NCBI GenBank assembly: GCA_017453465.1
Contig: JAFTEV010000018.1
Location: 1 to 42,665 of the forward strand
Direction: 5' to 3'
Source of the DNA: Bacteroidaceae bacterium
Lineage (GTDB): Bacteria > Bacteroidota > Bacteroidia > Bacteroidales > Bacteroidaceae
Length of the DNA stretch: 42,665 nt
The notes under the pieces were generated by a model. It saw only the letters and a program-made list of their open reading frames with translations. It had not been told where the DNA came from and searched no databases. The first letter of the stretch is position 1; each line of letters opens with the position of its first letter. Of the stretch, positions 52-42,665 are shown in pieces. A program made the position numbers and the translations under genes.

Positions 52-336
52 GGGGGGCTTGTCACGAAAAAGAAACTATCCCGACTCCTGTCTCTCAAAG
101 AGTTGGAATAGCTATAGCTACGTTTAGCGGACAGTAATAAAAACAAAACAACCTTCATGTCAAAAAAGTGTTGGTGGTACGATTGCGGATAATCATAAAA
201 AAATACACTTTCAGCCGGACACCAAGGCGGTTTCCAGTTCCCAGCACAGTGCCGAACAAGCGGAAGGGACGCGAAATCCATGCCACAACGATACAAAATC
301 GTCCTATTTTCTGCCCTTTTTTGCCCTCGGTGGGGA

Positions 337-480
337 CAAAAGTCGTTCTTGTCCGCAATGAAAGTTGAAACAACGGCGTTGTTTGTAAAAACAATGAGCG
401 TTGTTTTTGAAAACAACGGCGATGTTTATAAAAACAACGCCGTTGCGTCAACTTTGTAAGCCGACAAGAATAATTTTGTT
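337..480. repeat. Palindromic intergenic element, AACAACG/CGTTGTT type
   Basis: Bases around 337-383 (CAAAAGTCGTTCTTGTCCGC, then AAAGTTGA and AACAACGGCGTTGTTT) are mirrored by 430-480 (AAAACAACGCCGTTG, TCAACTTTG, CCGACAAGAATAATTTTG). The arms pair over about 45 bases with a few mismatches. The centre carries further copies of the AAAACAACG/CGTTGTTTT word. The rest of the gene-free stretch 52-600 shows no convincing gene or RNA. Confidence 0.6.
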
Positions 481-600
481 TGGGAATGGCAAAAATTTCC
501 CCGCGCAGTGGGGCTGAGAGGGGAAGGAAGTGGGAGGGAGGGGAAAGCGAATTGAGAATGTTTTTTTAGACATGAATCATCATGGGATGACTTCTATAAC

Positions 601-735
601 TTGAACACAGAGACACAGAGGCACAGAGAGGAAATTAGGAATTAGGAATTAGGAATTAGGAATGGATACTCAAATTGTGAATTGTTAATTGTTAATTGTG
701 AATTCCTTAAAAACTCTGTGTCTGTGGGCTTTCTC
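601..735. repeat. Mosaic palindromic element ending inside a HEPN gene
   Basis: It opens with TTGAACACAGAGACACAGAG, continues with four AATTAGG-type units and the core GATACTCAAATTGTG, then TTAATTG units, and closes with CTCTGTGTCTGTG, which pairs with the opening words. The same modules in the same order make up the element at 3531-3662. Its right end coincides with the point where the HEPN-like reading frame loses family resemblance. Confidence 0.65.
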
Positions 736-783
736 CAGTTGCAAGCGGACAACGGTTTGGCGTTCTTGTTCGTTCAGGCTCAT
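685..783 (-). pseudogene. Truncated HEPN-domain partner of the MNT nucleotidyltransferase
   Basis: The ATG at 783-781 overlaps the TGA of the upstream nucleotidyltransferase by four bases (ATGA), the usual coupling in MNT-HEPN pairs. The reading frame starts MSLNEQERQTVVRLQLEKAH, which resembles the beginning of Bacteroidales HEPN proteins (MxLxxEERxxxVxxxxEKA). After about 20 residues it runs into the intergenic repeat word CACAGAGT and stops at 685 after 32 residues. A HEPN domain normally has 110-140 residues with an RxxxxH motif, and none of that is left. I read this as a remnant cut off by insertion or expansion of the repeat element. The family assignment rests on the short N-terminus and on context, so it is tentative. 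Confidence 0.55.
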
Positions 784-1097
784 AGCAGCACGATTTTGTC
801 TTGTTCTACATTCTTGTAATAGGGCATGAAGGACATGGACTGCCATTCTTGCTTTGTGTACATCTGTGGGCTGATGAGTTCGCCTATTTTCCAGCCAAGC
901 AGAGTAAAGGGGAAGGAGATGTTATCGTAGTCACATTCTTCCAGCAGTGGCTTGTCGAGCAGGATGAGCAGGTCCCAGTCGCTGCCCTTGTGGGCATCGC
1001 CACGCGCACGCGAGCCATAGAGCAACAGATGGCTGCCCAGAGGCAGGGTCTCCCTTGCCACTTCTTTAATGTTGTTGATTACTTCTGCTTGTTCCAT
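780..1097 (-). CDS. MNT-type minimal nucleotidyltransferase
   Basis: This 105-residue protein has the nucleotidyltransferase signature GSRARG at 28-33 followed by SDWDLL at 39-44, whose aspartates (D40, D42) would bind the metal-nucleotide. Its length fits the minimal nucleotidyltransferase (MNT) family. Such proteins usually pair with a HEPN ribonuclease-like protein and, in characterised systems, inactivate it by AMPylation, forming a toxin-antitoxin pair. Here the HEPN gene follows with an ATGA overlap but is cut short after about 20 codons, so the MNT appears orphaned. The gene starts only 4 bases after the stop of the OmpA-family gene and is probably co-transcribed with it. Family assignment is firm; the antitoxin role is inferred. 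Confidence 0.85.
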   Translation of the reverse strand: MEQAEVINNIKEVARETLPLGSHLLLYGSRARGDAHKGSDWDLLILLDKPLLEECDYDNISFPFTLLGWKIGELISPQMYTKQEWQSMSFMPYYKNVEQDKIVLL

Positions 1098-1101
1098 GTG
1101 T

Positions 1102-2184
1102 CTATTTCCCTACGATGATGACGCAGCGGTTCTGGGCGTTGTCGGCGAAGGGTTGCTTGGTGTCGCCGTAGGCGGTGACGGTGATTTGGCTGGCGGGCAC
1201 GCCTTTGGACTTGAGGGCCTGAGCCACTTTGTCGGCACGCTGCTGGGCGAGCTTCATGTTGTAGTCGGGGGTGCCAGTGCCTTTGTCGGCATAGCCCTCG
1301 ACGATGATGCGGCCCTGGGGGTGCTGCTGGCTCCAGGCGGCTACCTTGTCGATGATGATGGTGTTGTTGACATCGGTCTCACGGATGGCGTATTGCAGGG
1401 CTTCGTTGAGCGGGGCTTCTACGGTCTTGGTGACGATGCGCTCGGCGGGCACGGCCTTGGGCTGCGGGGTGGGCGGCACGGGGGTGACCACCGGGGGTGC
1501 AACGGGTGCGGCTGTCTGAGCTTTGCGGCGCGAGAGGCCGAAGCGGTAGGTGAGCGAGAGCTGGGTGGTGAGCATCCAGTCGCGCTTGTGCTGCTGGTAC
1601 TTGGCGTTCCAGTCGTCGCCCATTGCGTTCATGTCGGCTTCGAGGCCCAGTTGCCAGTGGCGTGAGAGGCGGAAGTCGAACATGAGGCCCATGCGGAAGG
1701 AGGTGCCGTTGTAGCTCTGCTGCGCGAGGTTGTCGCCCCAGATATTGCTGATGTTCTCCTGCACGGCGGCGAGGGGCAGGGTGGAAATGTTGTTCCCCCA
1801 GGCATGGTTGATGCCGATACCGGCCACAAGGCTGACGTCGAAGAGGTGGGGGCGGTAGTGGCGGGTGAAGAGGTTGCAGAGGTTGAGCAGGAGGTCAACA
1901 TCGGCGTTGATGTAGTTGAACTTGTATTTGTCGTCGATGCTGCGGAAGCCGCCTTTCGACTGCCAGCCGTTGACACCCACGCGGAGTCCCAGCTGCGGTA
2001 TGACCATGGCACCCACGCCCACGGTGAAGGTGGGGGAAAGGAGCTTGTTCTGGTCCACGTTTGTAAAGGTGGTTCCCACACCGCCCTGCAGTTGCAGGAA
2101 TCCGTAGGGACGGAATTTCTCTTGTGCGCTGAGCGTGGTGAGCGCAGACAGTGCCACGGCTGTAGCCAATAAAATTCGTTTCAT
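1102..2184 (-). CDS. OmpA-family outer-membrane protein
   Basis: The start is placed at MKRILLATAVALSALTTLSA, a clear signal peptide; an in-frame start 14 codons upstream would spoil it. Residues about 22-230 have alternating polar/aromatic strands typical of an 8-stranded outer-membrane barrel (YGFLQLQGGVG, LGLRVGVNGWQ, FRMGLMFDFRLS, LSLTYRFGL). A proline-rich linker (APPVVTPVPPTPQPK) leads to an OmpA-like peptidoglycan-binding domain, where EGYADKGTGTPDYN and QQRADKVAQAL supply the conserved Asp and Arg that contact diaminopimelate. It likely anchors the outer membrane to the cell wall. A -7-like box (TATTTTTG on the minus strand, 2213-2220) lies just upstream, and the MNT gene follows 4 bases after the stop. 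360 residues, a normal size for this family in Bacteroidales. Confidence 0.88.
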   Translation of the reverse strand: MKRILLATAVALSALTTLSAQEKFRPYGFLQLQGGVGTTFTNVDQNKLLSPTFTVGVGAMVIPQLGLRVGVNGWQSKGGFRSIDDKYKFNYINADVDLLLNLCNLFTRHYRPHLFDVSLVAGIGINHAWGNNISTLPLAAVQENISNIWGDNLAQQSYNGTSFRMGLMFDFRLSRHWQLGLEADMNAMGDDWNAKYQQHKRDWMLTTQLSLTYRFGLSRRKAQTAAPVAPPVVTPVPPTPQPKAVPAERIVTKTVEAPLNEALQYAIRETDVNNTIIIDKVAAWSQQHPQGRIIVEGYADKGTGTPDYNMKLAQQRADKVAQALKSKGVPASQITVTAYGDTKQPFADNAQNRCVIIVGK

Positions 2185-2212
2185 GGTTTGCTCTTTTTTA
2201 CATTTACTGCTG

Positions 2213-2220
2213 CAAAAATA
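2213..2220 (-). promoter_or_regulatory. Bacteroidetes -7 box for the OmpA-MNT unit
   Basis: TATTTTTG on the minus strand matches TAnnTTTG with N = TT and lies 29 bases before the OmpA start codon. No clear -33 TTTG is visible upstream. Confidence 0.45.
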
Positions 2221-2291
2221 CGACATTTTATTTGTTTAATGAAATAAAATAACGAAATTTGCTGAAAAATTGCAAAAAGGAAAAAGCCTGT

Positions 2292-3515
2292 ATGTATAAT
2301 ATAGATAATGTACGTGAAGATTTCCCCATCCTGATCCGTCAGGTGTATGGCCGTCCGCTGGTGTATCTGGACAACGGGGCGACAACGCAGAAGCCGCGCT
2401 GTGTGGTGGAGGCGATGGTGGACGAATATTATAATGTGAATGCCAATGTGCACCGTGGTGTGCACTTCCTGTCGCAGCAGGCCACGGAGCTGCACGAGCA
2501 GAGCCGCGAGACGGTGCGCCGCTTCATTGGTGCGCGCAGTGCGAGCGAGGTGCTCTTCACGCGGGGCACAACGGAGAGCATCAACCTGCTGGCCTTCAGC
2601 TTTGGCGAGGCGTTCCTTCGCGAGGGCGACGAAGTGGTGGTGTCGGCCATGGAGCACCACAGCAACATTGTGCCCTGGCAGATGGTGTGCGAAAGGAAGG
2701 GGGCGAGGCTGCGTGTGATTCCGATGACGGACGCGGGCACGCTCTGCATGGATGCTTACCGCCAGTTGCTGAGTGAGCGCACGCGCATCGTGTGTTGCAC
2801 CCATGTGAGCAATGTGCTGGGCACGGTGAACCCCGTGGAAGAGGTTGTGCGCGAGGCACACCGCCATGGCATCCCTGTGCTAATTGACGGTGCGCAGTCC
2901 ACGCCGCATTTCCCTGTGGATATGCAGCAGCTGGACTGCGACTTCTTTGCTTTTTCGGGGCACAAGATTTATGGACCCACGGGCATCGGTGTGCTCTACG
3001 GCAAGGAGGAGTGGCTGGAGAAGTTGCCTCCCTATCAGGGCGGCGGCGAAATGATTAAGAATGTGTCGTTTGAGCGTACCACTTACAACGAACTTCCCTA
3101 CAAGTTTGAGGCTGGCACGCCCGACTACGTGGCGAGTCACGCACTGGCTGTGGCTCTGGACTATGTGTCGGCGCTGGGCATGGAGAACATCTACCAGCAC
3201 GAACAGGCTCTGACACGCTATGCCATGGAGCAGCTGCAGCAGCTGGAGGGTATGCGTATCTTTGGCCCCCCCGCAGCGGAGGGGCAGCACGATGCAGTCG
3301 TCAGTTTCCTGGTGGGCAACATTCACCACCTCGACATGGGCACCCTGCTCGACCGCCTCGGCATTGCCGTGCGCACGGGTCACCACTGTGCCGAACCGCT
3401 GATGCACCGCTTGGGCATCGAGGGCACCGTGCGTGCCTCCTTCGGCCTGTATAATACAAAAGATGAGGTTGATGCGCTGGTGGCTGGCATTGAGCGCGTG
3501 AGGAAAATGTTTTGA
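2292..3515 (+). CDS. sufS: Cysteine desulfurase SufS
   Basis: A class V aminotransferase-fold cysteine desulfurase of 407 residues, the usual length for SufS. It takes sulfur from cysteine, using PLP, and delivers it for Fe-S cluster assembly on SufBCD. The PLP lysine is K225 in FSGHKIYGP, the PLP-stacking histidine sits in AMEHHSN (about 119-125), and the persulfide cysteine is C366 in RTGHHCAEPL, the group II (SufS) loop arrangement. The start at 2292 (MYNIDNVREDFP) follows an AGGAAAAAG stretch; an earlier in-frame start adds 11 atypical lysine-rich residues. The gene stands alone, divergent from ompA, while sufB, sufC and sufD lie at 33643-37085; in many Bacteroidales sufS follows sufD directly. 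A palindromic repeat fills the gap after its stop. Confidence 0.93.
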   Translation: MYNIDNVREDFPILIRQVYGRPLVYLDNGATTQKPRCVVEAMVDEYYNVNANVHRGVHFLSQQATELHEQSRETVRRFIGARSASEVLFTRGTTESINLLAFSFGEAFLREGDEVVVSAMEHHSNIVPWQMVCERKGARLRVIPMTDAGTLCMDAYRQLLSERTRIVCCTHVSNVLGTVNPVEEVVREAHRHGIPVLIDGAQSTPHFPVDMQQLDCDFFAFSGHKIYGPTGIGVLYGKEEWLEKLPPYQGGGEMIKNVSFERTTYNELPYKFEAGTPDYVASHALAVALDYVSALGMENIYQHEQALTRYAMEQLQQLEGMRIFGPPAAEGQHDAVVSFLVGNIHHLDMGTLLDRLGIAVRTGHHCAEPLMHRLGIEGTVRASFGLYNTKDEVDALVAGIERVRKMF

Positions 3516-3530
3516 GATTTTGGTTGAGTT

Positions 3531-3662
3531 TTGAACACAGAGAGACAATGAGGAATTAGGAATGAGGAATTAGGAATTAGGAGTTGATACTCAAATTGTG
3601 AATTGTGAATTGTGAATTATTCATTGCCCTAAACCTCTGTACCTCTGTGTCTCTGTGTTCAA
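3531..3662. repeat. Mosaic palindromic element between convergent sufS and deoxynucleoside kinase
   Basis: It begins TTGAACACAGAGAGAC and ends GTCTCTGTGTTCAA, an exact 14-base inverted match at the tips with further CTCTGTG units inside. The middle has AATTAGG units, the core GATACTCAAATTGTG and three GAATTGT units. It occupies nearly all of the 156 bases between two convergent stop codons and may act as a bidirectional terminator. Confidence 0.7.
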
Positions 3663-3671
3663 TTTAACTTC

Positions 3672-4292
3672 CTACATGTCTGGGAACAGACCAAAGAGGC
3701 GTGCGTCTATCTGGTCGGTAATTTTCTGGAAGTCTTCGGGATTCTGCTCGAACTTTAGTGTGTCGCCATCTACGATGATGAACTTCCCCTTGTAGTCCTT
3801 AATCCAGTTTTCGTACTTCTCGTGGAGTCCCTGCAAGAAGTCCATGCGCATGGCTTGCTCATAGTCGCGTCCGCGCTTCTGAATCTGGTTGACCAGCGTG
3901 GGGATGCTGGAGCGGATGTAGATGAGGAGGTCGGGCAGACGCACCGTGCTGATCATGGTCTCGAACAGGCTCAGGTAGTTGGCGTAGTCGCGGTCGTCAA
4001 TCATGCCCATGTCGTGGAGGTTGGAGGCGAAGATGTAGGCATCCTCGAAGATGGTACGGTCGAGCACGATGGAGCGGCTGGAGGCAGCAATCTCCAGCAC
4101 GTCTTTGTAGCGTTTCGAGAGGAAGAAGACCTGGATGTTGAAGGCCCAGCGTTTCATGTCGGCATAGTAGTCGGACAGGTACGGATTGTTTTCTACTGGC
4201 TCGAAGTGAGGCTCCCAGCCATATCGCTTGGCAAGCATGTTGGTCAAGGTTGTCTTGCCGCAACCTATGTTTCCTGCAATGGCAATGTACAT
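3672..4292 (-). CDS. Deoxynucleoside kinase (dGK/dAK family)
   Basis: A 206-residue P-loop kinase that phosphorylates deoxynucleosides in the salvage pathway. The N-terminus MYIAIAGNIGCGKTT holds the Walker A motif at residues 7-15. EPVENNPYL near residue 36 matches the substrate-binding E-P-V/x-x-N-P-(Y/F)-L motif of the family, VLDRTIFED near 75 supplies the catalytic DR(S/T) box, and the arginine-rich lid is at KRGRDYE (about 138). Bacterial relatives act on deoxyadenosine and/or deoxyguanosine; the preference cannot be told from the sequence. A -7-like box lies about 20 bases before the start. It is divergent from the B12 locus and convergent with sufS, and shows no functional link to either. 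Confidence 0.88.
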   Translation of the reverse strand: MYIAIAGNIGCGKTTLTNMLAKRYGWEPHFEPVENNPYLSDYYADMKRWAFNIQVFFLSKRYKDVLEIAASSRSIVLDRTIFEDAYIFASNLHDMGMIDDRDYANYLSLFETMISTVRLPDLLIYIRSSIPTLVNQIQKRGRDYEQAMRMDFLQGLHEKYENWIKDYKGKFIIVDGDTLKFEQNPEDFQKITDQIDARLFGLFPDM

Positions 4293-4312
4293 ATTTACTT
4301 AGTTTTTGTTTG

Positions 4313-4320
4313 CAAATATA
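4313..4320 (-). promoter_or_regulatory. -7 box for the deoxynucleoside kinase
   Basis: TATATTTG on the minus strand matches TAnnTTTG exactly and lies 20 bases before the kinase start. A TTTG at 4336-4333 on the same strand is closer than the usual -33 spacing. Confidence 0.5.
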
Positions 4321-4375
4321 CAAGCATTTTTTCAAAAAGAGGCTATTTGTGTAACGTTTTTTATGAAAACGCTTC

Positions 4376-4403
4376 TTGGAGTGCAGATTTTTCCTTACCT
4401 TTG
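4376..4403 (+). promoter_or_regulatory. Promoter of the cobalamin-uptake locus
   Basis: A TTG at 4376-4378 (-33 region) and TACCTTTG at 4396-4403 (perfect TAnnTTTG) are separated by 17 bases. Transcription would start just before the riboswitch. Confidence 0.6.
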
Positions 4404-4407
4404 CAGC

Positions 4408-4580: not shown

Positions 4581-4581
4581 A

Positions 4582-4620
4582 GAACAGAACTCTCCCTCGT
4601 GGATTGGGGAGGCGGTTCTC
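4582..4620 (+). promoter_or_regulatory. Hairpin after the cobalamin aptamer, possible expression platform
   Basis: AGAACTCTCCC can pair with GGGGAGGCGGTTCT around a short loop. It follows the aptamer directly. There is no U-tract, so it may act on translation or RNA stability rather than as a simple terminator. Confidence 0.4.
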
Positions 4621-4731
4621 AATTAACAATTAACAATTAACAATTAACAATTGGAGTATCAGGCTTCACTGCCCATGTTACTCAAATTGTGAATTCACAA
4701 ATTGTCAAATTGTCCAATTGTCCAATTTGAA
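4621..4731. repeat. AATTAAC/AATTGTG repeat between riboswitch and btuB
   Basis: Four ATTAACA units are followed by AATTGGAGTATCAGG, a spacer, then TTACTCAAATTGTGAATTC and several AATTGTCC units. The two halves are partly complementary (CAATTGGAGTA with TACTCAAATTG). It places about 110 bases of repeat between the riboswitch and the start codon of the receptor gene. Confidence 0.6.
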
Positions 4732-4734
4732 AAA

Positions 4735-6765: not shown

Positions 6766-7931
6766 TCTTGCTGGCGCTTGGAGCCTGTCGCAAAGACATT
6801 GAGGTTTTCCTGCCCGAAGTGGAAAAGGTGGGAGAACAGGAGGTCATCGTGGACAGCGGTGAACCCCTCCAGCCCTTCCTTCCCCAATACAAAAGCATCC
6901 AGGGCTTCTACCTGCTGAACGAAGGCAACATGGGCAGCAACAAAGCCACGCTGGACTACTACGACTACACCACGGGCGACTACACCCGCAACATCTACGG
7001 CAATGCCAACCCCAACGTGCCCAAGGAAATGGGCGACGTGGGCAACGACCTCGCCATCTACGGAGGCCGCCTCTATGCCGTCATCAACTGCTCCAACAAG
7101 GTGGAAGTCATGGACAAAACCACAGCCCGCCGCATCGGGCAAATCGACATACCCAACTGCCGCTACATCCGTTTCCACGAAGGCTATGCCTACGTCACCA
7201 GCTATGCAGGACCCGTCCTCATCAGCGACGACTACAAGCAACGTGGCTACGTGGCCAAGGTAGATACCGCCACCCTGCAAGTGGTCGATACCTGCGTCGT
7301 GGGCTTCCAGCCCGACGAACTCGAAATCATCGGCGGCAAAATCTATGTGGCCAACTCTGGCGGCTACATGGTCTCCAACTACGAAACCACCCTCTCCGTC
7401 ATCGACCTCGCCACCTTCAAGCACCAGCGGCGCATCCCCGTAGCCCCCAACCTCCACCACGTCAGGGCCGACAACCACGGCCAGCTCTGGGTCACCAACC
7501 GAGGCGACTACTTCGATGTCCCCTCCCGTCTCTACTGCATCGACACCCACACCGACCAGCTCACCGACACCATCGACATCCCCGTCACAGGCTACCACCT
7601 CGACGGCGACTCCCTCTACATCTACGGCACAGCCTGGAGCTACGAGACCATGGACGAAGAAGTGACCTACGCCATTGTCGATGTACAGCACCACACCATC
7701 CTCACCCGCAGCTTCATCACCGACGGCACCGACCAGACCATCCGCAAACCCTACGGCATCACCGTCAACCCCCTCACCAAAGACATCTACCTCACCGATG
7801 CAAAAAACTACGTCAACCCCGGCACACTCTACTGCTTCACCCCCGACGGCAAAAAGAAATGGAGCGTCCGCACAGGCGACATCCCCGCCCACATCACCTT
7901 TCTGGGAGAAGTGAAAACAATTCACAATTAA
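6741..7931 (+). CDS. btuG: BtuG-like surface cobalamin-binding lipoprotein (beta-propeller)
   Basis: Start ATG at 6741 lies inside the end of the receptor gene (25-base overlap), suggesting translational coupling. MRIKVEFLVLLALGAC is a lipoprotein signal with lipobox LGAC and lipidated Cys16. The 396-residue protein then has YncE-type propeller repeats, visible as recurring strand units (GDVGNDLAIYGGRLYAVINCSNKVEVMD, DELEIIGGKIYVANSGG, HHVRADNHGQLWVTNRGDY, KPYGITVNPLTKDIYLTDA). In Bacteroides, BtuG caps BtuB on the cell surface and captures B12 with very high affinity; length and position fit. Codons here end mostly in C, unlike the btuF and btuC genes further along the locus. Confidence 0.87.
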   Translation: MRIKVEFLVLLALGACRKDIEVFLPEVEKVGEQEVIVDSGEPLQPFLPQYKSIQGFYLLNEGNMGSNKATLDYYDYTTGDYTRNIYGNANPNVPKEMGDVGNDLAIYGGRLYAVINCSNKVEVMDKTTARRIGQIDIPNCRYIRFHEGYAYVTSYAGPVLISDDYKQRGYVAKVDTATLQVVDTCVVGFQPDELEIIGGKIYVANSGGYMVSNYETTLSVIDLATFKHQRRIPVAPNLHHVRADNHGQLWVTNRGDYFDVPSRLYCIDTHTDQLTDTIDIPVTGYHLDGDSLYIYGTAWSYETMDEEVTYAIVDVQHHTILTRSFITDGTDQTIRKPYGITVNPLTKDIYLTDAKNYVNPGTLYCFTPDGKKKWSVRTGDIPAHITFLGEVKTIHN

Positions 7932-8100
7932 TCAATTCACAATGCACAATTTGAGTATCAATTTCTAATTCTTCATTCCTAATTCCTAATTCCTAATTCC
8001 ACATTATGTATCAATTCCACATTCCTCATTCCTCATTCCTCATTCCTCAACCCCTCTGTGCCCTCTGTCTTCTCAGTGCTCTCTGTGCCCCTTTAGAGGC
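7920..8100. repeat. Mosaic repeat running into the next coding sequence
   Basis: The words are those of 601-735 in reverse orientation: CAATTCACAA and ACAATTTGAGTATC, then several TAATTCC units, ATTCCTC units, and CTCTGTGCCCTCTGTC-type units. The last two groups lie inside the coding sequence that starts at 8006 and encode its signal peptide. Confidence 0.65.
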
Positions 8101-16120: not shown

Positions 16121-16123
16121 TTG

Positions 16124-16212
16124 GTTGAGTGTTTAGAGATGAGTGTTTAGCGTTTATAGACGTTGCTGTAAAGTCTCTCATCTCTAAACTCTAAACACTC
16201 ATCTATAAACAA
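16124..16212. repeat. Palindromic element, GAGTGTTTAGA type
   Basis: GAGTGTTTAGAGATGAGTG at 16127 and GCGTTTATAGAC at 16150 are answered by CTCATCTCTAAACTC, TAAACACTCATC and CTATAAAC at 16177-16210. It lies between the giant gene and the following DUF4465 gene. Confidence 0.6.
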
Positions 16213-16242: not shown

Positions 16243-17118
16243 ATGAGAAAGATTTTCTACTTTGCTTTGCTGATGTCCATGCCTGCCGTGGCACAGCAGT
16301 CGGACGTGGTGGCTACATTCGAGGATTTGGCTCTGGAGCGGGATTGCTTCTGGAATGGTAGCGACGGCACTGGGGGCTTTGTCTCTGGTGGCTTCCGTTT
16401 TGAGAATGGCTATGAGGTGATGGACTATGGTGGTTACTCTTACGCTTACGCATACGGGTTCTACTATAGCACGATGACGGCTACGTCGTTTGCGGATTAC
16501 GCGACGGACCAGTACAACAGTTGTGTGGGCCACGGCGCGGAGGGTTCGGCTACGTATGCCGTGTATAATGTGAACAATTATACGCCGAAGGGCATCGAGG
16601 TGCTGGGCGGCGAGAGGGTTGTGCCTGGCTGCTACCTGACGAATGATGCCTGTGCTTACTGGTCGATGATGCAGGGCGATGGTTATGCAAAGAAGTTTGG
16701 CGCGGGTGACTGGTTCAAGTTGACCATCACGGGGCTGGATGCTGCGGGCGCGGTGACGGGCGCGGTAGATTTCTATCTGGCCGATATGCGCGAGGGCGCG
16801 GACGGTGGCATCGTGGACGATTGGCAGTGGGTGGACCTTAGCTGTCTGGGCAGGGTGGCTCGGCTGAGTTTCGACATGAGCAGCAGTGACAGCGGTCAGT
16901 ATGGCATGAATACGCCTGCTTATTTCTGTCTGGACAATCTGGGTGCTGCCCAGCCTGGGGTTGACCCGTCGGTCGGCGTGGCGGCGGTGGAGGCTGCGGG
17001 GGACGGTGTGCCTGTGGCTATCTATAGCGCGAGCGGTGTGCGTCGCAGTGCGTTGGCGGCGGGACTGAACATCGTGAAGTATGGAAATGGTGTGACGAAA
17101 AAGATTTTTGTTAGATAA
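16243..17118 (+). CDS. DUF4465-family secreted protein, BtuH-like
   Basis: A 291-residue protein with signal peptide MRKIFYFALLMSMPAVA, start at ATG 16243. Almost all of the mature part is one DUF4465-type domain: FEDLALERDCFWNGSDGTGG, FRFENGYEVMDYGGYSY, GFYYSTMTATSFADYATDQYNSCVG, VDFYLADMREG, DDWQWVDLSCLG, MNTPAYFCLDNLG. The same motifs occur twice at the end of the upstream giant protein, so the two genes probably share a duplicated module. I recall BtuH, a surface B12-binding lipoprotein of Bacteroides, as a member of this family; here there is no lipobox, and the C-terminus GLNIVKYGNGVTKKIFVR looks like a type IX secretion tail instead. The next gene starts inside its stop codon (TAATG). 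Family firm; B12 binding inferred. Confidence 0.85.
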   Translation: MRKIFYFALLMSMPAVAQQSDVVATFEDLALERDCFWNGSDGTGGFVSGGFRFENGYEVMDYGGYSYAYAYGFYYSTMTATSFADYATDQYNSCVGHGAEGSATYAVYNVNNYTPKGIEVLGGERVVPGCYLTNDACAYWSMMQGDGYAKKFGAGDWFKLTITGLDAAGAVTGAVDFYLADMREGADGGIVDDWQWVDLSCLGRVARLSFDMSSSDSGQYGMNTPAYFCLDNLGAAQPGVDPSVGVAAVEAAGDGVPVAIYSASGVRRSALAAGLNIVKYGNGVTKKIFVR

Positions 17119-19569: not shown

Positions 19570-19695
19570 AGAAGTACGGTTGTGCGGTCTTACGGTTAGA
19601 CGGTCATACGGTTGTACGGTTAGACGGCTGTTCTACCATAAAACCACAAAACCGTTAAGCGAAGCGACCGCAAAACCGCAAAACCGCAAATAAGT
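19570..19695. repeat. TACGGTT/AAACCGC repeat in the leader of the MsbA-like gene
   Basis: TACGGTT and TAGACGG words (19573-19627) are complementary to the ACCGTTAAG and AAAACCGC words at 19640-19690. The element fills the space between the -7 box and the start codon. Confidence 0.55.
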
Positions 19696-21537: not shown

Positions 21538-21645
21538 GTGAAGAGTGAAAAGTGAAGAGTGAAAAATTTAAGTTACTGGGGTTAAACGCAGTCTAATGGT
21601 GGCTAAACTGTAACTTAGATTTTTCACTCTTCACTTTTCACTTAC
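21537..21645. repeat. Palindromic element, AGTGAAGAGTGAAA type, between convergent genes
   Basis: AGTGAAGAGTGAAAAGTGAA at 21537 and AAATTTAAGTTAC at 21564 pair with GTAACTTAGATTTTTCAC and CTCTTCACTTTTCACTT at 21610-21643. The right arm reaches across the stop codon of the fucosyltransferase-like gene. Likely a bidirectional terminator. Confidence 0.7.
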
Positions 21646-25955: not shown

Positions 25956-26245
25956 CGATTTTTTTTAGTTAAAAGTTAAAAGTTAAAAGATAAAATGCCA
26001 TGCGGAGTGCTTTTTAGTTAAAAGTTATGTGTTCATAGTGGGGAGGTAGGGGGTTAGGGAGATAGAAGGAGATAGAAGGAGTTAGAAGGAGTTAGAAGAC
26101 GATACAAAATCTGGTAACGTCCTTTATCTTCCTCTATCTCCCTTTAACTCCTTCTACCTCCCCACTATGAACACATAACTTTTAACTAAAAAGCACTCCG
26201 CATGGCATTTTAACTTTTAACTTTTACTTTTAACTAAAAAACTCT

Positions 26246-28083: not shown

Positions 28084-28087
28084 ACTT

Positions 28088-28203
28088 AATAATTCACAAT
28101 TAAACAATTCACAATTCACAATTTGAGTATGAAAACTTCGGCGGACACAACAGCCGTAGATACTCAAATTGTGAATTGTGAATTGTTTAATTGTGAATTA
28201 CTA
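28088..28203. repeat. Palindromic element, AATTCACAA/TTGTGAATT type, between convergent genes
   Basis: Bases 28090-28130 and 28160-28200 are an exact 41-base inverted match composed of AATTCACAA words ending in TTTGAGTAT (core word shared with 601-735, 3531-3662 and 7920-8100). The loop is GAAAACTTCGGCGGACACAA and a few more bases. It fills the space between two convergent stops. Confidence 0.75.
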
Positions 28204-28221
28204 ATCGTGAATTGTTACACT

Positions 28222-28696: not shown

Positions 28697-28760
28697 TTGC
28701 CCGGAACACCCGGACAACCCGGAAAACCCAGAATATCCGGATTATCCGGAAAAGCCCGGC
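28697..28760. repeat. CCCGGA-word repeat between the two HU-like genes
   Basis: CCCGGAACA, CCCGGACAA, CCCGGAAAA, then ATCCGGATTATCCGGAAAA and CCCGG. The TATCCGGA words are self-complementary. It lies in the 108-base spacer between two co-directional genes. Confidence 0.5.
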
Positions 28761-29330: not shown

Positions 29331-29412
29331 CGGCATAGGCAATCCGTCGCGCTCGCATAGGCAACCAAACGCAAACCATTGCCTACGCGAGCGCGACGGA
29401 TTGCCTACGCCG
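29331..29412. repeat. GC-rich palindromic element, GGCAATCCGTCGCGCTCG type
   Basis: CGGCATAGGCAATCCGTCGC and GCTCGCATAGGCAA (29331-29364) match the inverse of TTGCCTACGCGAGCGCG, ACGGATTGCCTACGCCG (29379-29412): 34 bases with two mismatches around a 14-base loop. A second copy lies at 42601 to the window end. The remaining gene-free bases 29155-29330 and 29413-29681 hold promoter boxes and an A-tract but no gene I can support. Confidence 0.75.
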
Positions 29413-31777: not shown

Positions 31778-31802
31778 GTCCCTGCGAAGCGGGGAGAAAA
31801 AA

Positions 31803-31960
31803 CCACAGATTGCACGGATTACACGGATTCTTTTCTTATGATAACCATTCACGAAATTACACAGATTGGACAGCACGGAGGAGTCGTTCACGACTCTAAA
31901 ATCTGTGTAATCCTATCTATAATTTCAAAAAAGAATCCGTGTAATCTGTGCAATCTGTGG
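31803..31960. repeat. Palindromic element, CACAGATTGCACGGATT type, copy A
   Basis: CCACAGATTGCACGGATTAC and ACGGATTCTTTT pair with AAAGAATCCGTGTAATC and TGTGCAATCTGTGG at the other end. Inside, GAAATTACACAGATT pairs with AATCTGTGTAATCC, and the tip GAGTCGTTCACGACTC is a small hairpin. A close copy follows 60 bases later. Confidence 0.8.
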
Positions 31961-32019
31961 TAAGTAGAAGAACAAAAATGATTTATATGAAATTCATGTT
32001 AAAAAAGCGAGAGAAAAAA

Positions 32020-32181
32020 CCACAGATTGCACAGATTACACGGATTCTTTTCTTATGATAACTATTCATGAAATTACACAGATTGGACAGCACGGAGGAG
32101 TCGTTCACGACTCTAAAATCTGTGCAATCTTATTCATAATTTCCCCCAAAAAAGAATCCGTGTAATCTGTGCAATCTGTGG
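32020..32181. repeat. Palindromic element, CACAGATTGCACAGATT type, copy B
   Basis: Nearly the same sequence as 31803-31960 in the same orientation, with scattered point changes (for example CATTCAC to TATTCATG) and a CCCCC insertion near 32143. Its right end is 16 bases before the start of the S24 peptidase gene, so it forms that gene's leader. Confidence 0.8.
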
Positions 32182-32197
32182 TAACAAAGAAACATAC

Positions 32198-33034: not shown

Positions 33035-33104
33035 AACTCCCGCCGCCTACCCCCCGGAACTCCCGCCCCATGCGGAAAGTCCCGCCAAAACTCTCTCTTT
33101 CTCC

Positions 33105-33139
33105 CGCCCAAGCGTCTCCCCCGCGCCTGGGCGTTTTTT
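33105..33139 (+). terminator. Rho-independent terminator after the S24 gene
   Basis: CGCCCAAGCG and CGCCTGGGCG pair around TCTCCCCCG-type loop bases and are followed by TTTTTT at 33134-33139. Confidence 0.75.
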
Positions 33140-33146
33140 GTGTCTG

Positions 33147-33154
33147 TACCTTTG
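33147..33154 (+). promoter_or_regulatory. -7 box for the unknown 146-residue gene
   Basis: TACCTTTG, perfect TAnnTTTG, 34 bases before the start codon at 33189 and directly after the preceding terminator. Confidence 0.5.
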
Positions 33155-33188
33155 CAGTGTGTTTAATAAATAAACAATGTAAGAAACA

Positions 33189-33629
33189 ATGAAAACACTG
33201 GCATTGATGAAAACGGCGCAATATAAGGATTGCGCAACCTACACACTGCATGTGGGGAGTACACGGGACGACGAGGAGCAGATGGTGCTGGACAAGCCCC
33301 TGCTGCTGTTGGTAGTGCCCAAGAACACGGAAGCGCGCCTCCAACGGGTGGTGAAGGTGCGCTTCGAGTTTTATCACGTAGTATTCACGCTGTACTTCTC
33401 GGACAGGGTGCACAAGGCGGTGAGGTGTCTGCCCGCCGACGGGCTGAACCTGCGGGCACTGAGCGGACCCGACGAGCGGCTGGTGTTTGGCCTGAATGCC
33501 AACAGGCAGTGCATGGACCGCATTGAGTTCAGCGACAAGGTGCGCCGCATTGCCCTGCTGAGACTGGAGAAGGTGGTGGTGGTGCCGAGCCGCTACGTGG
33601 TGTACGACAAGGCGTTTGAGCTGGACTGA
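33189..33629 (+). CDS. Hypothetical protein, 146 residues
   Basis: I do not recognise the family. It starts MKTLALMKTAQYKDCATYTLHVGSTRDDEEQ, has a hydrophobic strand pair LDKPLLLLVVPK and FEFYHVVFTLYFSDRVHKAV, and a strongly basic second half with VRRIALLRLEKVVVVPSRYVVYDKAFELD. There is no signal peptide, membrane helix or helix-turn-helix. The alternating beta-like pattern suggests a small, mainly beta cytoplasmic protein. It has its own promoter box, is isolated by a terminator from the S24 gene, and its stop is only 13 bases from the convergent sufD stop. Codons end mainly in G or C. The reading frame and promoter make it likely to be a real gene. Confidence 0.7.
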   Translation: MKTLALMKTAQYKDCATYTLHVGSTRDDEEQMVLDKPLLLLVVPKNTEARLQRVVKVRFEFYHVVFTLYFSDRVHKAVRCLPADGLNLRALSGPDERLVFGLNANRQCMDRIEFSDKVRRIALLRLEKVVVVPSRYVVYDKAFELD

Positions 33630-37692: not shown

Positions 37693-40629
37693 TTATAGCT
37701 TCGCCTTTACTTCTACTTCGGTGTAAGTCTCGAAGATGTCGCCTTCCTGAATGTCGTTGTAGTTCACGATGGAAATACCACATTCAAATTCGCGTCCCAC
37801 TTCCTTCACGTCGTCCTTGAAACGCTTCAGCGCAAGGATTTCGCCTGTGTGAACAACGATACCGTCGCGAATGACACGAATCTTGTCGGTGCGGTGCACC
37901 TTGCCTTCTGTCACCCAGCAGCCAGCCACTGTGCCGACCTTGGTAATCTTATAGACTTGACGCACTTCAGCCTGACCAGTCACTTCCTCCTTCATGGTCG
38001 GAGCAAGCATACCTTCCATCGCATCCTTCACCTCTTCGATAGTGTCGTAGATGATGGAGTAGAGGCGAATATCTACACCCTCCTGCTCAGCCAACTTGCG
38101 GGCGGCAGCAGAAGGACGCACCTGGAAGCCGATGATGATGGCATCACTGGCACTGGCCAACGTGACATCGCTTTCGCTGATTTGACCCACAGCCTTGTAG
38201 ATAACGTTGACTTGAATCTTCTCCGTAGAAAGTTTGATGAGCGAGTCGGACAAAGCCTCGATGGAACCGTCCACGTCGCCCTTGACCACAAGGTTGAGTT
38301 CCTTGAAGTCGCCCAAGGCAATGCGTCGGCCCAGCTCGTTGAGGTCAACACGCTTCATCGTGCGCAGACCCTGTTCACGCTTCAGCTGTTCACGCTTGTT
38401 GCAGATTTCGCGAGCCTCATGCTCAGTCTCCATCACGTGGAACGTGTCACCTGCCGTAGGCGCACCATTCAAGCCCAGAATGACAGCTGGTTCAGCTGGC
38501 AGAGCCTTGTCGATGCGCTGTCCACGCTCATTGAACATGGCCTTAATCCTACCATAGTGTGTACCAGCCAGCACAATGTCGCCCACGTGCAGCGTACCAT
38601 TCTGGCAAAGCACTGTAGCCACATAGCCACGTCCCTTGTCCAGTGTCGATTCTATGATGGAACCCGTTGCCTTGCGGTTCGGATTAGCTTTCAGGTCGAG
38701 AATCTCGGCTTCCAGCAACACCTTGTCCATCAGTTCCTCCACACCGATACCCTTCTTGGCAGAAATCTCCTGACTCTGGTACTTGCCACCCCAGTCTTCC
38801 ACCAGCAGATTCATGGCAGCCAGCTGCTCCTTAATCTTCTCTGGGTTTGCGCCTGGCTTATCAATCTTGTTGATGGCAAAGACCATCGGCACATTGGCTG
38901 CCTGAGCATGAGCAATGGCCTCTTTGGTCTGTGGCATGATGGCATCGTCGGCAGCAATGATGATGATGGCAATGTCCGTCACCTGAGCACCACGTGCACG
39001 CATGGCTGTAAACGCCTCATGTCCTGGCGTATCGAGGAAAGTGATACGTCGTCCATCCTTCATCTTCACGTTGTAGGCACCGATGTGCTGCGTAATGCCG
39101 CCCGCTTCACCAGCAATCACGTTGGTCTTGCGGATGTAGTCGAGGAGCGAAGTCTTACCGTGGTCAACGTGACCCATCACCGTGATGATAGGAGCACGTG
39201 GCAGCAAGTCTTCAGCAGCATCCTCTTCTTCCACGATGGCATTGCTTACTTCCTCACTCACATAATTCGTGGTAAAGCCAAATTCCTCCGCCACGATGTT
39301 GATGGTCTCAGCGTCCAGACGCTGGTTGATGCTCACCATCATGCCGATAGACATACACGTGCCGATAACCTTCGTCACAGGCACATTCATCATGGTAGCA
39401 AGTTCGCTGACCGTCACAAACTCGGTCAACTTCAGAATCTTGCTCTCAGCATTCTCCTGCTGTTCTTCTTCCGCCATGCGGTCACGGATGGCATCGCGCT
39501 TCTCCTTGCGGTACTTCACGCCCTTCTTCTCTTGCTTCGACGTGAGGCGAGCCAATGTCTCCTTTACCTGCTTTGCAACTTCCTCGTCGCTCAGTTCCTG
39601 TATGTTGACCGTCTTGTTCTTCTTCTTTTTCTTCTTGCCCTGAGCCTGTGGCTGCTGCTGTCCCTTCTGCTGCTGCTTCTGCTGATTGCTGCCAGGACCC
39701 TGCTGCTGCCCCTTGTTCTTAGCCTTGGGCTGTGCAGCAGTCACCTGCTTGCCGGCAGCCTCCACGTCGATGCGCTCCTTGCCAATGCGGTTGCGCTTCT
39801 TCTTTGTGTCGCCGCTCTTGGTCTGACCCTGCTGTGCCTGTTGCTGCTGACGCTTTTCGTTGCGTTCCTTTTTGCGCTCACTGGCACTCTTGCGGTCGGG
39901 GCGTGTTTTCGAGTTGATGCTCGAAAGGTCGATGAAGCCCACCTGCTTGAACTGCACGCTGGCCTCCTGCGGAGCGGCCAAATGATACACACCGTTTTCG
40001 TCCATCTCCAGTCTTTCGGCTGGTGAAAGCGGTTTCGGCTTACGCTTCGGCTCGGCCTTTTCATTCTTGCTTTTCTCGTCAGATGGTGCGGGCTTTTCAC
40101 TGGCATCAGACGTTTCTTGAGACTGCGGCTGCGAAACGGCAGGCGTTTCTTCCTGCACAGGTTCAGCTAGTGCAGAAGGAGTTTCCACGGGTTTCACCTC
40201 TGGTGCTGGAGCCGTCTTCTTTTCTTCCACAGCAGGTGCTTCGGCTTGTTCCTCCTTCGGTTTCTTTTCCACCGCAGGTTGTCCTTTCAAGTCATTGATG
40301 TTGCCAACAATCTTGAACTGCTGCTTCTTTTCCATTTCTTTCTCTTTGCGCTCCTTTTCCAGACGTTCTTTTTCCAGCCGCTGCTGCTCCTTGCGCTCCT
40401 GCTTTTCCTTTTCCTCACGCTCCTTGCGTTTCTGGATGTCGGCCTTCACTTCGGCATGTTTCGTCTTGTCAGTGCCAAACTCCTTCACAAGCAAGTCATA
40501 CTGTCCGTCAGTCAGTTTCGCATTAGGGGTAGCATCCTCCAGCGGTGCACCCTTCTTTTGCAGGAATTCAGCCACAGTGTTGATTCCCACATTCAGTTCT
40601 TTCAATGCTTTATTTAGTCTTACTGCCAT
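37693..40629 (-). CDS. infB: Translation initiation factor IF-2
   Basis: A 978-residue IF-2. [27 protein letters not shown] is the standard N-terminus. Residues about 60-390 are a long charged region with [15 protein letters not shown] and glutamine/lysine runs ([26 protein letters not shown]), as in other Bacteroidales. The GTPase domain begins near 480: [16 protein letters not shown] (G1), [15 protein letters not shown] (G3), [12 protein letters not shown] (G4), then domains II-IV ending [10 protein letters not shown]-2 places initiator tRNA on the ribosome. It follows nusA with a 55-base spacer containing repeat words, and its stop directly abuts the cvpA start. Confidence 0.96.
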
Positions 40630-40637
40630 ATAAAACC

Positions 40638-40686
40638 TTTTTAATTACGAATTACGAAATCCGAATTACGAAATGATTTCGGATTT
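40638..40686. repeat. ATTACGAAATCCG repeat in the nusA-infB spacer
   Basis: ATTACGAATTACGAAATCCG and AATTACGAAATG are followed by ATTTCGGATTTA, which can pair back. The words are those of the element at 18249-18400. It fills nearly all of the 55-base spacer in an otherwise tight operon and reaches the nusA stop codon. Confidence 0.65.
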
Positions 40687-41950
40687 AGTCTTCAAATTCA
40701 GCGCGGAGGGTGTTAAGCACCTCGTCAACAGTGCCTTCTTCCAGGTCGGCCTTCTCGATGAGCATATCGCGGGGCGCATTGAGCACCTTCTTCGCCGTGT
40801 CAAGGCCAATGCCCTTGATGGCTTCGATAATCCACTCGTCGATTTCGTCCTTAAACTCATCCAGATAGATGTCCTCTTCGGCTGGTTCGTTGCCGTCCAG
40901 TTCGCGGAACACATCAATGGTGTAGCCTGTCAGCATCGAGGCCAGCTTGATGTTCTGTCCGTTCTTACCGATGGCGAGGCTCACCTGGTCTGGCTGCAAA
41001 TACACCTCTGCCTTCTTCGCCTCCTCGTCCAGCTGGATGCTCGACACATGGGCAGGCGAGAGCGCACGCTGAATGAACAGCTTCGTATTGCTCGTATAGT
41101 TGATGACATCAATGTTCTCGTTGTGCAGTTCACGCACAATGCCATGGATACGGCTACCCTTCACACCGACGCACGCACCCACAGGGTCAATGCGCTCATT
41201 GTAGCTCTCCACCGCAATCTTCGCACGCTCGCCAGGAATGCGGGCAATCTTGCGGATAGTAATCAGGCCATCGTTGATTTCAGGCACTTCGTTCTCCAGC
41301 AACCGCTGCAAGAACTCTGGAGCCGTGCGGCTCAGGATAATCTTCGGATTGTTGTTCAGGTTATCCACACGCAGCACCACGGCACGTGCAGGTTCACGCT
41401 TGCGGAAGAAGTCGGTCGGTATCTGCTCGCTCTTCGGCAGCAACAGTTCATTGCCCTCGTCGTCCAGCAGCAGCACCTCGCGCTTCCACACCTGATAGAC
41501 CTCAGCCGTGACAATCGTGCCAATCTTCTCCACATATTTATTATAAAGGTTGTCGTGCTCCAGGTCCAGAATCTTGCTGGCCATCGTCTGGCGCAACGTC
41601 AAGATGGCACGACGGCCAAAGTCGGTGAAGTTCACCCGCTCCGACACCTCTTCGCCCAACTCGTAATCCTCGTCTATCTTCTGAGCCTCGCTCAGCGCAA
41701 TCTCTGCGTTGGGATTCTTCACCTCGCCGTCAGCCACCACTGTGCGGTTATGGTAAATCTCGAAGTCGCCCTTGTCGGGGTTCACAATCACATCATAATT
41801 CTCGTCCGAACCGTAAGTCTTCTGCAACACACTGCGGAACGAATCCTCCAGCACGCTAATCAGCGTAGTTCGGTCAATGTTCTTGGTCTCCTTGAAGTCC
41901 TTGAAGGTATCAATCAGGTTGACCTTTGCAATATTCTTCTTAATAGCCAT
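40685..41950 (-). CDS. nusA: Transcription termination/antitermination factor NusA
   Basis: A 421-residue NusA. The N-terminal domain (KVNLIDTFKDFKETKNIDRTTLISVLEDSF) contacts RNA polymerase. An S1 domain follows near 140-205 (GTIVTAEVYQVWKREVLLLDDEGNELLLPKSEQ), then KH domains with ILSRTAPEFLQRLLENEVPEI, RIPGERAKIAVES, DPVGACVGVKGSRI and VSLAIGKNGQNIKLASMLTGY. The C-terminal acidic repeats of proteobacterial NusA are absent, which is normal for Bacteroidetes; a short helix-hairpin-helix-like end (AIKGIGLDTAKKVLNAPRDML) remains. It modulates pausing and termination. Located 20 bases after rimP and before infB. Confidence 0.95.
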   Translation of the reverse strand: MAIKKNIAKVNLIDTFKDFKETKNIDRTTLISVLEDSFRSVLQKTYGSDENYDVIVNPDKGDFEIYHNRTVVADGEVKNPNAEIALSEAQKIDEDYELGEEVSERVNFTDFGRRAILTLRQTMASKILDLEHDNLYNKYVEKIGTIVTAEVYQVWKREVLLLDDEGNELLLPKSEQIPTDFFRKREPARAVVLRVDNLNNNPKIILSRTAPEFLQRLLENEVPEINDGLITIRKIARIPGERAKIAVESYNERIDPVGACVGVKGSRIHGIVRELHNENIDVINYTSNTKLFIQRALSPAHVSSIQLDEEAKKAEVYLQPDQVSLAIGKNGQNIKLASMLTGYTIDVFRELDGNEPAEEDIYLDEFKDEIDEWIIEAIKGIGLDTAKKVLNAPRDMLIEKADLEEGTVDEVLNTLRAEFED

Positions 41951-41970
41951 TTATGTGTTTTTTACGTTTT

Positions 41971-42438
41971 TCACTTAAAATCAATGATGCTTCGCACCCA
42001 CTTCACTTCGTCGTAAGCGAAAGTCTTGTCCACATCCACCATGACGGGACGCTTCTTTTCCTCCAGACGCTGCTTTTCCCGCACCGTCACGGTGAAGCCT
42101 TCAGGTGTAGCATCCTTCATAGAGCCTTCCATCTTCTTGCCGTCCGCAGTCAGCAACTCCACATCGTAGCCAATGGAGTTGACATACTGCTGGAGAACCT
42201 TGAAAGGCTGACCGATACCAGCCGAACCCACCTCCAGCTCATAATCCTCCACGTCACGGTCCAGATGAGCCTCGATAAACTTACTTAATTCACAGCAATC
42301 CTCTATCCATACGCCATCCCTGTGGTCTATCTCCACAGTAATCTTGTTCTGGTTATCCACTTCAACGTCAACAAGGAAATACTCTCTTCCTGTCAACCAT
42401 TCAAGTGCCAAGTCCCTAACTTTGCTTTTATCTATCAT
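41971..42438 (-). CDS. rimP: Ribosome maturation factor RimP
   Basis: A 155-residue RimP, needed for late assembly of the 30S subunit. REYFLVDVEVDNQNKITVEIDHRDGVWIEDCCELSKFIEAHLDRDVEDYELEVGSAGIGQPF matches the N-terminal family domain, where LEVSSPG is usual and LEVGSAGIGQPF is the Bacteroidetes version. An SH3-like C-terminal domain follows (VNSIGYDVELLTADGKKMEGSMKDATPEGFTVTV). First gene of the rimP-nusA-infB-cvpA-sufBCD run; a -7-like box lies 54 bases upstream. Confidence 0.93.
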   Translation of the reverse strand: MIDKSKVRDLALEWLTGREYFLVDVEVDNQNKITVEIDHRDGVWIEDCCELSKFIEAHLDRDVEDYELEVGSAGIGQPFKVLQQYVNSIGYDVELLTADGKKMEGSMKDATPEGFTVTVREKQRLEEKKRPVMVDVDKTFAYDEVKWVRSIIDFK

Positions 42439-42492
42439 AAAACTACAATTAAAAGAGGGAACTTGTCAAGTCCCCTCCGTTCCTTTCGGCTG

Positions 42493-42500
42493 CAAAATTA
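42493..42500 (-). promoter_or_regulatory. -7 box for the rimP-nusA-infB-suf operon
   Basis: TAATTTTG on the minus strand matches TAnnTTTG and lies 54 bases before the rimP start. Confidence 0.55.
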
Positions 42501-42600
42501 CGAAAAACCCAGCAACCAGCCAAGAAAACAGCCACTTATTTTCACAAAAACATTGAAAATTCTTGCAAAAGGGTTAAACGGGTATTAAAACACGTCGCTA

Positions 42601-42665
42601 CGGCATAGGCAATGCGTCGCGCTCGCGTAGGCAATTGTTGACCCTTGATTGCCTACGCGAGCGCG
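42601..42665. repeat. GC-rich palindromic element, second copy, cut by the window end
   Basis: CGGCATAGGCAATGCGTCGC and GCTCGCGTAGGCAA are followed, after a 15-base loop, by TTGCCTACGCGAGCGCG, where the window stops. It matches 29331-29412 in both arms (one base differs, AATGCG against AATCCG), while the loop is different. Confidence 0.7.

Follow-up and report, generated by a model that had tools for sequence, protein, structure and literature searches.

The intervening sequence (IVS) of the 23S ribosomal RNA (rRNA) of Coxiella burnetii is about 430 nt long and sporadic in distribution; its open reading frame (ORF), encoding S23p, lies within a 28-bp terminal inverted repeat and is preceded by tandem GACAGAT heptamers, and the passages of PMC4990558 that deal with it describe an ORF in reductive evolution and a protein of 'no known function'. 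The family to which such ORFs are assigned, PF05635, is said in an excerpt of PMC10053308 to resemble the Avd protein of diversity-generating retroelements. Heptamer direct repeats (TAACTGA), for which a regulatory role has been proposed, are described from Beggiatoaceae, Cyanobacteria and some Bacteroidetes in the relevant parts of PMC4679880. Here we describe palindromes built from iterated words of 7-10 bases in the intergenic gaps of a Bacteroidaceae gut bacterium (assembly GCA_017453465.1, hereafter G000), beginning with a 42,665-nt stretch of contig JAFTEV010000018.1 (the window), together with two families of small genes, S23 (PF05635, 23S_rRNA_IVP) and GxxExxY (PF13366), that lie between such word-built arms elsewhere in the same genome.

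Most of these palindromes belong to families defined by their words, and we consider it likely that the family members are, for the most part, copies of two tiny kinds of element, one S23 and one GxxExxY, that lack the gene. Like the 23S IVS, they have stem-forming terminal inverted repeats (at 28 of 30 S23 loci) and an S23 ORF in gene-bearing copies only (four G000 genes over the PF05635 cut-off), most palindromes having no ORF; unlike the 23S IVS, the copies studied here lie between protein genes (rRNA genes were not searched), are many and mostly ORF-less, have arms consisting largely of words, and share their layout with the unrelated GxxExxY family. They resemble the TAACTGA repeats in their intergenic tandem heptamers, patchy occurrence over distant lineages and 7-nt indel steps, but those repeats are described, in the same parts of that paper, as direct, with no palindromes and no link to S23 or GxxExxY. 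Miniature inverted-repeat transposable elements (MITEs) are likewise short, non-autonomous and bounded by inverted repeats, with longer gene-bearing relatives, and shared ends of this sort occur in 33/121 of our palindromes; the differences are that no target-site duplication was found (in the family called F10 below), that the arms are iterated words, and that the gene-bearing form carries PF05635 or PF13366 and no known transposase. Repetitive extragenic palindromic (REP) elements and REPINs, with their RAYT transposase, are also dispersed intergenic palindromes, but G000 has no match to the RAYT family PF01797, nor is there an association in the genus. In the indexed text of open-licence PubMed Central (PMC) literature, subscription papers and preprints being outside its scope, we found no link of S23 or GxxExxY to iterated-word palindromes and no occurrence of six word strings; the name GxxExxY is rare there, and the passage of PMC8934634 in which it occurs is unrelated.

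The palindromes are common and far from random. The window contains 59 inverted pairs of at least 14 nt with partners no more than 300 bp apart; among its 17 gaps of at least 40 bp, nine have a stem score of at least 12 and 13 a stem or tandem array scoring at least 10, and two edge regions (F3 at 339-477 plus the element at 601; F4 near 42600-42665) are additional to these. The survey of G000 covered 692 kb in 38 stretches and gaps of 60-1500 bp, genes being called with a simple hexamer-scoring ORF caller and stems scored at +1 for a match and -2 for a mismatch. Stems scoring at least 14 were present in 108/233 gaps, and tandem words scoring at least 12 in 74/233 (47 of period 7), compared with 0/699 dinucleotide shuffles for either; 53 gaps hold stem and array together. 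The initial annotation, which had reported such palindromes in 'nearly every longer gap', was therefore right about their existence, and its alternative that the words might be no commoner than in shuffled intergenic DNA is contradicted; 'nearly every' is fair for the window, with exceptions at 2170-2291 and 33035-33206, and the modules said to stand in equal order at 601 and 3531, and reversed at 7920, can be seen by eye in the gap sequences. In two samples from the same genus, stems occur in 29/140 gaps, arrays in 32/140 and both in 13 (G004), and in 8/149, 28/149 and none respectively (G001). Sampling was uneven and genome bins are incomplete (for G000, 3.16 Mb in 108 contigs, completeness 84.97%, contamination 6.04%); many G000 stretches and some from G001 were picked for holding the AGTTAAA word, and the rates in both, among them the 46% for stems in G000, may therefore exceed the true genome rates. 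Three G000 stretches (L020, L027, L108) belong to contigs duplicated in the assembly and were left out: wherever stretches were compared, the members of the pairs C11/C84 and C81/C106 showed 100% identity.

Clustering by sequence of 158 palindromes from G000, G004 and G001 placed 84 of the 121 from G000 in seven clusters of at least four members and left 37 in no family, so that the G000 palindromes are more than one population. We named families by their words: F1, AGTTAAA; F2, AGTGAAA with AATCTAAGTTAC; F3, AACAACG; F4, TAGGCAATGCG; F5, ACCGCAA; F6, AAATCATTGTTTGATTC; F7, CACAGAG with AATTAGG and AATTGTG; F8, AATTACG; F9, GGAGATAGA; and F10, CACRGATT; some of these are merged in the clusters. 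Besides arm words, inner modules or loops are common to many members of one family, which are therefore dispersed copies by descent. The proposal of a common generating process in place of descent from a single mobile sequence is accordingly supported in part: it fits the variety of word sets and is incomplete within families. Palindromes of F6 form a nearly invariant sequence, TAAATCATTGTTTGATTCTTAAGAATCA (L013 12912-12972, L016 14433-14493, L023, L025, L093, L107 and L019), with six of seven copies in divergent gaps, and have rather the look of a regulator site or of some other sort of element. Other dispersed palindromes were seen in G001, where AAATTCCAAGCGCTTAGAATTT recurs in four gaps (L031, L033, L037, L042), and in the Bacteroides genomes G196 and G222 (L264-L283), where copies are built from TTTTGTACARAAGATTG words and two of them differ by modules of 46 bp and 22 bp. 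In the Bacteroides pairs G196/G222 and G309/G421, palindromes are mostly alike in both members where flanks were found, although a number of flanks were not.

The connection to genes came from F10; at least 119 public-genome stretches contain its pattern, CACRGATTNCACRGATTACACRGATT. Among the matches listed, three F10 arm pairs lie more than 400 bp apart, and two of these, from Muribaculaceae (L115) and Planctomycetota (L122), enclose a like ORF of the family PF13366 PDDEXK_3 (E 4.7e-37 and 8.9e-17), or TIGR04256 GxxExxY, the copy in L122 being frameshifted; the third (L133) encloses no GxxExxY ORF. In the reverse test we took PF05635 as well, the family to which the ORF in intervening sequences of rRNA is assigned. 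Across 251 Bacteroidaceae-level genomes PF13366 matched in 100 and PF05635 in 146, and the best 30 loci of each, one per genome, were scanned for an inverted repeat scoring at least 12 between the 500-bp flanks. Such arms enclose the gene at 18/30 GxxExxY loci (shuffles 0/150) and at 28/30 S23 loci (three of the 30 had any of five shuffles that high), compared with 19/258 ordinary genes (9/104, 2/50 and 3/69 of like size, and 5/35 neighbours in the same loci). The GxxExxY arms are mostly of CAC-type words (TTCACCACAGATTACACAGATT, GAACACAGAGACACGGAGACACAGAG, GGCACGGATTACACGGATT) and the S23 arms of others (AGTTAAGGAGTTAAGG, TTAGACGTTAGA, GGAGTTAAATGGAGTTAGAAGG).

Arms of the same words occur with and without a gene in the one genome. 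G000 has four S23 genes over the PF05635 cut-off, three weaker matches and three GxxExxY genes, none of them inside the window. S23 genes lie between F1 arms (L374, score 25), F2 arms (L375, score 37) and AATTAGG/AATGAGG arms (L373, score 25, where the script picked an ORF on the wrong strand, yet the arms enclose the S23 match); one GxxExxY gene (L380) has F10 arms, score 17, whose top-scoring piece is 74.6% identical over 63 nt to the window copy, and another (L381) has arms of a different sequence. At least four 9-mers are shared with gene-bearing arms by 33/121 palindromes, as against 3/121 with shuffled arms. By eye, the genes on either side of those in L372-L375 and L380 look like groES/groEL, ackA/pta, tkt/rpiB and korA/korB, which are core operons.

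Remnants of the genes were also found between arms. The 129 loci fetched with F10 contain eight pieces of GxxExxY ORF, seven of them inside F10 arms and the eighth (L215) at a locus end; the ORF is intact in L115 and in L208 (Desulfobacteraceae), in two pieces in L122, and reduced to fragments of 132, 75 and 75 bp (E 4e-10, 4e-5 and 5e-5) in three Desulfosporosinus loci. Three S23 pieces, from Phycisphaerae, FCPU426 and Treponema, have inverted arms scoring 14, 17 and 17 against 12, 9 and 9 in shuffles. Among solved structures, the S23 protein of L374 has a match in chain 2rld (E 4.6e-36) and a weak one in 2gsc. None is close to GxxExxY (3cae, Endonuclease I, E 0.061), and the D...E-x-K pattern is kept in 29 of 37 trimmed GxxExxY sequences.

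At orthologous junctions, units are present or absent as wholes behind stop codons. The gene names used here were assigned from protein sequences. For korA-korB, 18 short stretches were chosen with the match table in view (full-length matches in 7/40 genomes) and 17 were placed, giving 18 species with G000: 14/18 have a gap of 40-42 bp, and 4/18 have a 485-593 bp unit in which arms enclose a GxxExxY gene and which starts just behind the stop codon. The four ORFs are one clade among 37 GxxExxY sequences (support 0.978), and the unit is therefore probably old at that junction; even so, both arms show changed words, a little different in G004/G003 from those of G000 (CACRGATT to ACGGATT) and strongly so in G013 (CGAATT). 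At groES-groEL, 29 of 30 loci could be placed, with gaps of 25-481 bp; 16 have tandem words, of several unrelated sets, and stems score at least 12 in 12 of the 29 (one of 29 had any of five shuffles that high). Only G000 has an S23 gene there, and by eye its first word supplies the groES stop codon; G015 has AGTTAAA words on both sides and no S23 gene. With many unrelated palindromes among congeneric species, this gap (L382-L411) is a natural turnover panel. In the window gap 21538-21637, G000 has F2 and G004 inverted F10 words (seen by eye and by an F10 pair scan, the loop being too long for the stem score), and at 16121 both species have palindromes, of different words. Word sets thus differ even at one orthologous gap, in agreement with the earlier claim of one architecture in many word sets and not one mobile sequence. 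Elsewhere, the F2 element at L018 4125-4251 faces a 6-bp gap, the element at L092 3888-3990 faces an overlapping start in the orthologue, and window genes adjoin at 17118 where G004 has an element; nine gaps could be compared with G004 and 16 with G001, and gain cannot be told from loss where a single species has the element.

These results bear directly on an explanation that we consider unlikely but the strongest of the competitors. In it the palindromes would have an origin of their own, as host repeats or as another mobile element, and would offer landing sites to S23 and GxxExxY genes, passengers that insert into hairpin loops. It would account for the absence of a gene from most palindromes, for the gene that adjoins its palindrome at L379, for the one layout common to two unrelated proteins, and for the report, in the part of PMC4990558 concerned, that in 23S rRNA helices the intervening sequences took the place of tetraloops. 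However, ordinary genes are seldom bounded by such arms; the empty korA-korB species have a short conserved gap and no palindrome, arms and gene being present or absent together there; and the gene fragments inside arms point from full copy to empty.

The two arms of an element resemble each other more than they resemble those of other elements of the family. The own right arm is the strictly best partner in 40/84 family elements, where 7.0 would be expected, contradicting the possibility, raised beforehand, of drift without preserved pairing. Mismatches in family elements were GT in 19 cases and AC in 36 (p = 0.03, away from G-U on the transcript), and 31 and 40 over all stems; this lack of favour for G-U argues against an mRNA hairpin being under selection and agrees with a process at the DNA level, fold-back copying for example; so do the 88-nt arms, at 92%, of the nested element at 25962-26241. 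In codirectional gaps 37/51 family elements lie nearer the upstream stop (p = 0.002), 11 of them within 10 bp of the stop and one within 10 bp of the start, a placement that selection against promoter disturbance would also give. A terminator-like tract accompanies 12/84 family palindromes and the reverse pattern 15/84, and 20/84 are in divergent gaps; as intrinsic terminators they were accordingly rejected. By comparison, 19 of the 37 non-family palindromes are in convergent gaps, with a tract in 14 and the reverse in one, and so part of the palindromes seen are probably terminators, the non-family ones for a large part, and the families are not. A role as RNA signals of the host, whether as bidirectional terminators, as stabilisers of 3' ends or as RNase III processing sites, maintained by hairpin selection with the words as neutral filler, therefore seems to us improbable: stop-proximal placement, stems in 29/39 convergent gaps and different-word palindromes in one gap of different species would suit it, but the mismatches, the lack of terminator tracts and the divergent gaps oppose it.

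The F10 words extend over Bacteria and Archaea. By record title, and among the matches listed, they occur in Bacteroidota, Planctomycetota, Verrucomicrobiota, Acidobacteriota, Chloroflexota, Bacillota (Desulfosporosinus), Pseudomonadota (Asticcacaulis, Azospirillum), sulphate-reducing Desulfobacteraceae, Treponema, Cloacimonadota, WOR-3, FCPU426 and Archaea (Methanoperedens, Methanolobus); many of the records are metagenome bins, in which a contig may be misplaced, and isolates are included too. A hand estimate assuming even base composition puts the chance expectation of the pattern in public genome contigs at about 0.004. Among the same matches, 82 of 157 arrays of at least three words have an inverted partner within 350 bp, and there are 73 distinct palindromes, whose arms mostly start CCACRGATT after A or T and whose loops differ greatly in length. 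The pattern also occurs in 10 IMG/VR contigs, and an F10 probe gave weak to good matches in 22 plasmid records (14 Bacteroides, six Persicobacter, two Streptococcus) and 23 phage records. One locus, in Bacteroides congonensis, is matched at up to 91% by genomes sharing the family with G000; a 6-bp repeat seen by eye around its F10 copy was not used as evidence, the sister G393 having no element but a gap that differs otherwise. Within the genus, F10 is present in 17/45 genomes and a reversed control pattern in 0/45. The suggestion that a RAYT-like transposase might track with the elements is not borne out: PF01797, the one transposase family searched, has no match in G000 (85% complete) and shows no association with F10 over 45 congeners (7, 10, 13, 15; p = 0.77), and a REP/REPIN-like origin through RAYT or another known transposase, which dispersed intergenic palindromes with shared loops might suggest, is rejected for RAYT and very improbable overall, given also that F10 palindromes show no target duplications.

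Our preferred reading, of palindromes as gene-less copies of S23 and GxxExxY elements, is carried by the architecture, by like arms with and without a gene in one genome, by presence or absence at junctions, by gene remnants and by own-arm matching, from which we infer that the elements are mobile. A full copy consists of a single gene, about 120 codons long, flanked on one side by an inverted arm of tandem words and on the other by the mirrored arm, the first kind having an S23 four-helix-bundle gene (in G000 with heptamer or 10-base words) and the second a GxxExxY gene of PD-(D/E)XK type, mostly with CAC-type nonamers. The elements lie behind a stop codon, often within an operon, and loss or decay of the gene would leave a palindrome. 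To judge from its position, the encoded protein would move the element, in cis or in trans; words would multiply by slippage, and fold-back copying at the DNA level would keep the arms alike. Located between protein genes, the elements would correspond to the intervening sequences of 23S rRNA genes.

Several observations weigh against this reading. Strong arms are absent at 12/30 GxxExxY loci; in G000 the arms of F9 words at the S23 gene of L372 score 11, below threshold, and at L379 the CACGAATT palindrome lies beside the GxxExxY gene and not around it. No word tie to a gene-bearing copy exists for 88/121 palindromes, F3-F6 have none by shared 9-mers in G000, and the assignment of F8 rests on four 9-mers. 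Exact doublets of F1, F2, F7 and F8 words occur in 0/34 S23 loci, although this probe was over-strict and misses L374 and L375 too; the word match is thus established within G000 only. Presence of GxxExxY and of F10 over 17 congeners (10, 3, 1, 3) gave p = 0.10. The remnant search was partly circular, its loci having been fetched by F10 arrays and L115 being inside the search model, and of the three fragments from Desulfosporosinus two are weak matches (E about 5e-5). A direct repeat of at least 5 flanks 8/73 F10 palindromes, against 8.7 in shuffles, this check covering F10 alone; an earlier pass over 19 pairs with an over-narrow pattern gave 10.5% against 8.8% shuffled. Finally, sequences were compared, and no transposition was seen.

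The window features are collected in Table 1. Near 28700-28750 there is also a period-9 direct array of CCCGGAAAA-type words. Scans of the window gave terminator-like signals at 26 vs 19.4 and 19 vs 19.9 in shuffles and promoter-like signals at 16 vs 12.3 and 8 vs 9.3. The sole Rfam match in the window is a cobalamin riboswitch (RF00174, 4396-4585 on the forward strand, 92.2 bits), downstream of which lie genes for a TonB-dependent receptor, a DUF5074 protein, a DUF4465 protein of 2308 aa and a periplasmic binding protein, likely a B12-uptake region.

Table 1. Word-built elements in the window; identities are to arms or words at gene-bearing loci of G000.
Feature	Position	Remarks
F3 palindrome, AACAACG words	339-477 (arms 339-393 and 423-477)	arms 55 nt, 78% complementary; no gene-bearing partner found
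F7 element, AATTAGG and AATTGTG arrays within CACAGAG arms	604-726	limits by eye
F7 element, convergent gap	3531-3662	AATTAGG/AATGAGG part 94.6% over 37 nt to arms of S23 locus L373
Tandem AATTAAC array	4620-4652	AATTGTG-type words then to about 4720
Reversed F7 modules	7932-8000	fill 74-bp codirectional gap
GTTTAGA-word palindrome	16130-16211	orthologous G004 gap: palindrome of other words
F8 palindrome, AATTACG/AAATCCG	18266-18389	genes overlap at G004 junction
F1 palindrome, AGTTAAA	19459-19544	arm identity to S23 gene L374 arms, 96.8% over 31 nt
F5 word element, ACCGCAA / CGGTTNT	19580-19691	limits by eye
F2 palindrome, AGTGAAA with AATCTAAGTTAC, convergent stops	21544-21642	arms 94.4% over 36 nt to S23 gene L375 arms
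Nested element, F9 (26057-26162) within F1 arms (88 nt, 92% complementary)	25962-26241	F9 words 84.4% over 45 nt to S23 L372
AATTGTG palindrome, convergent gap	28086-28204	45-nt arms, 98% complementary
F4 palindrome, TAGGCAATCCGTCGCG, divergent gap	29331-29412	no gene-bearing partner found
F10 palindrome, CACRGATT nonamer, first of two	31802-31961	outer-arm identity to GxxExxY gene L380 arm, 89.3% over 28 nt
F10 palindrome, second copy	32019-32182	loop nearly identical to that of first copy
AATTACG tandem array, no second arm	40643-40672	
F4 element cut by window end	42600-42665	start by eye

A wider and decidedly more tentative proposal is that word-ended elements might be a mobile-DNA class of their own over Bacteria and Archaea, in which a single protein of about 120 residues, either a PD-(D/E)XK-type nuclease (GxxExxY) or an Avd-like S23 pentamer, would recognise hairpin-folded tandem words and insert the element behind stop codons, the words of both arms turning over quickly and in concert and the 23S IVS being a small minority inserted in ribosomal genes. 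For the S23 kind, the likeness to Avd, which assists diversity-generating reverse transcriptases, would make copying by way of RNA a possible route. Were this true, each genome would evolve its own word set, and gene-less copies would fill much intergenic DNA. Their place within core operons, groES-groEL among them, may also let the elements alter message processing. S23 and GxxExxY are common small proteins, the latter a family name only, and the shared word-arm layout gives them a common setting. Two old puzzles are made testable: the nature of rRNA intervening sequences, and the origin of heptamer repeats and intergenic palindromes.

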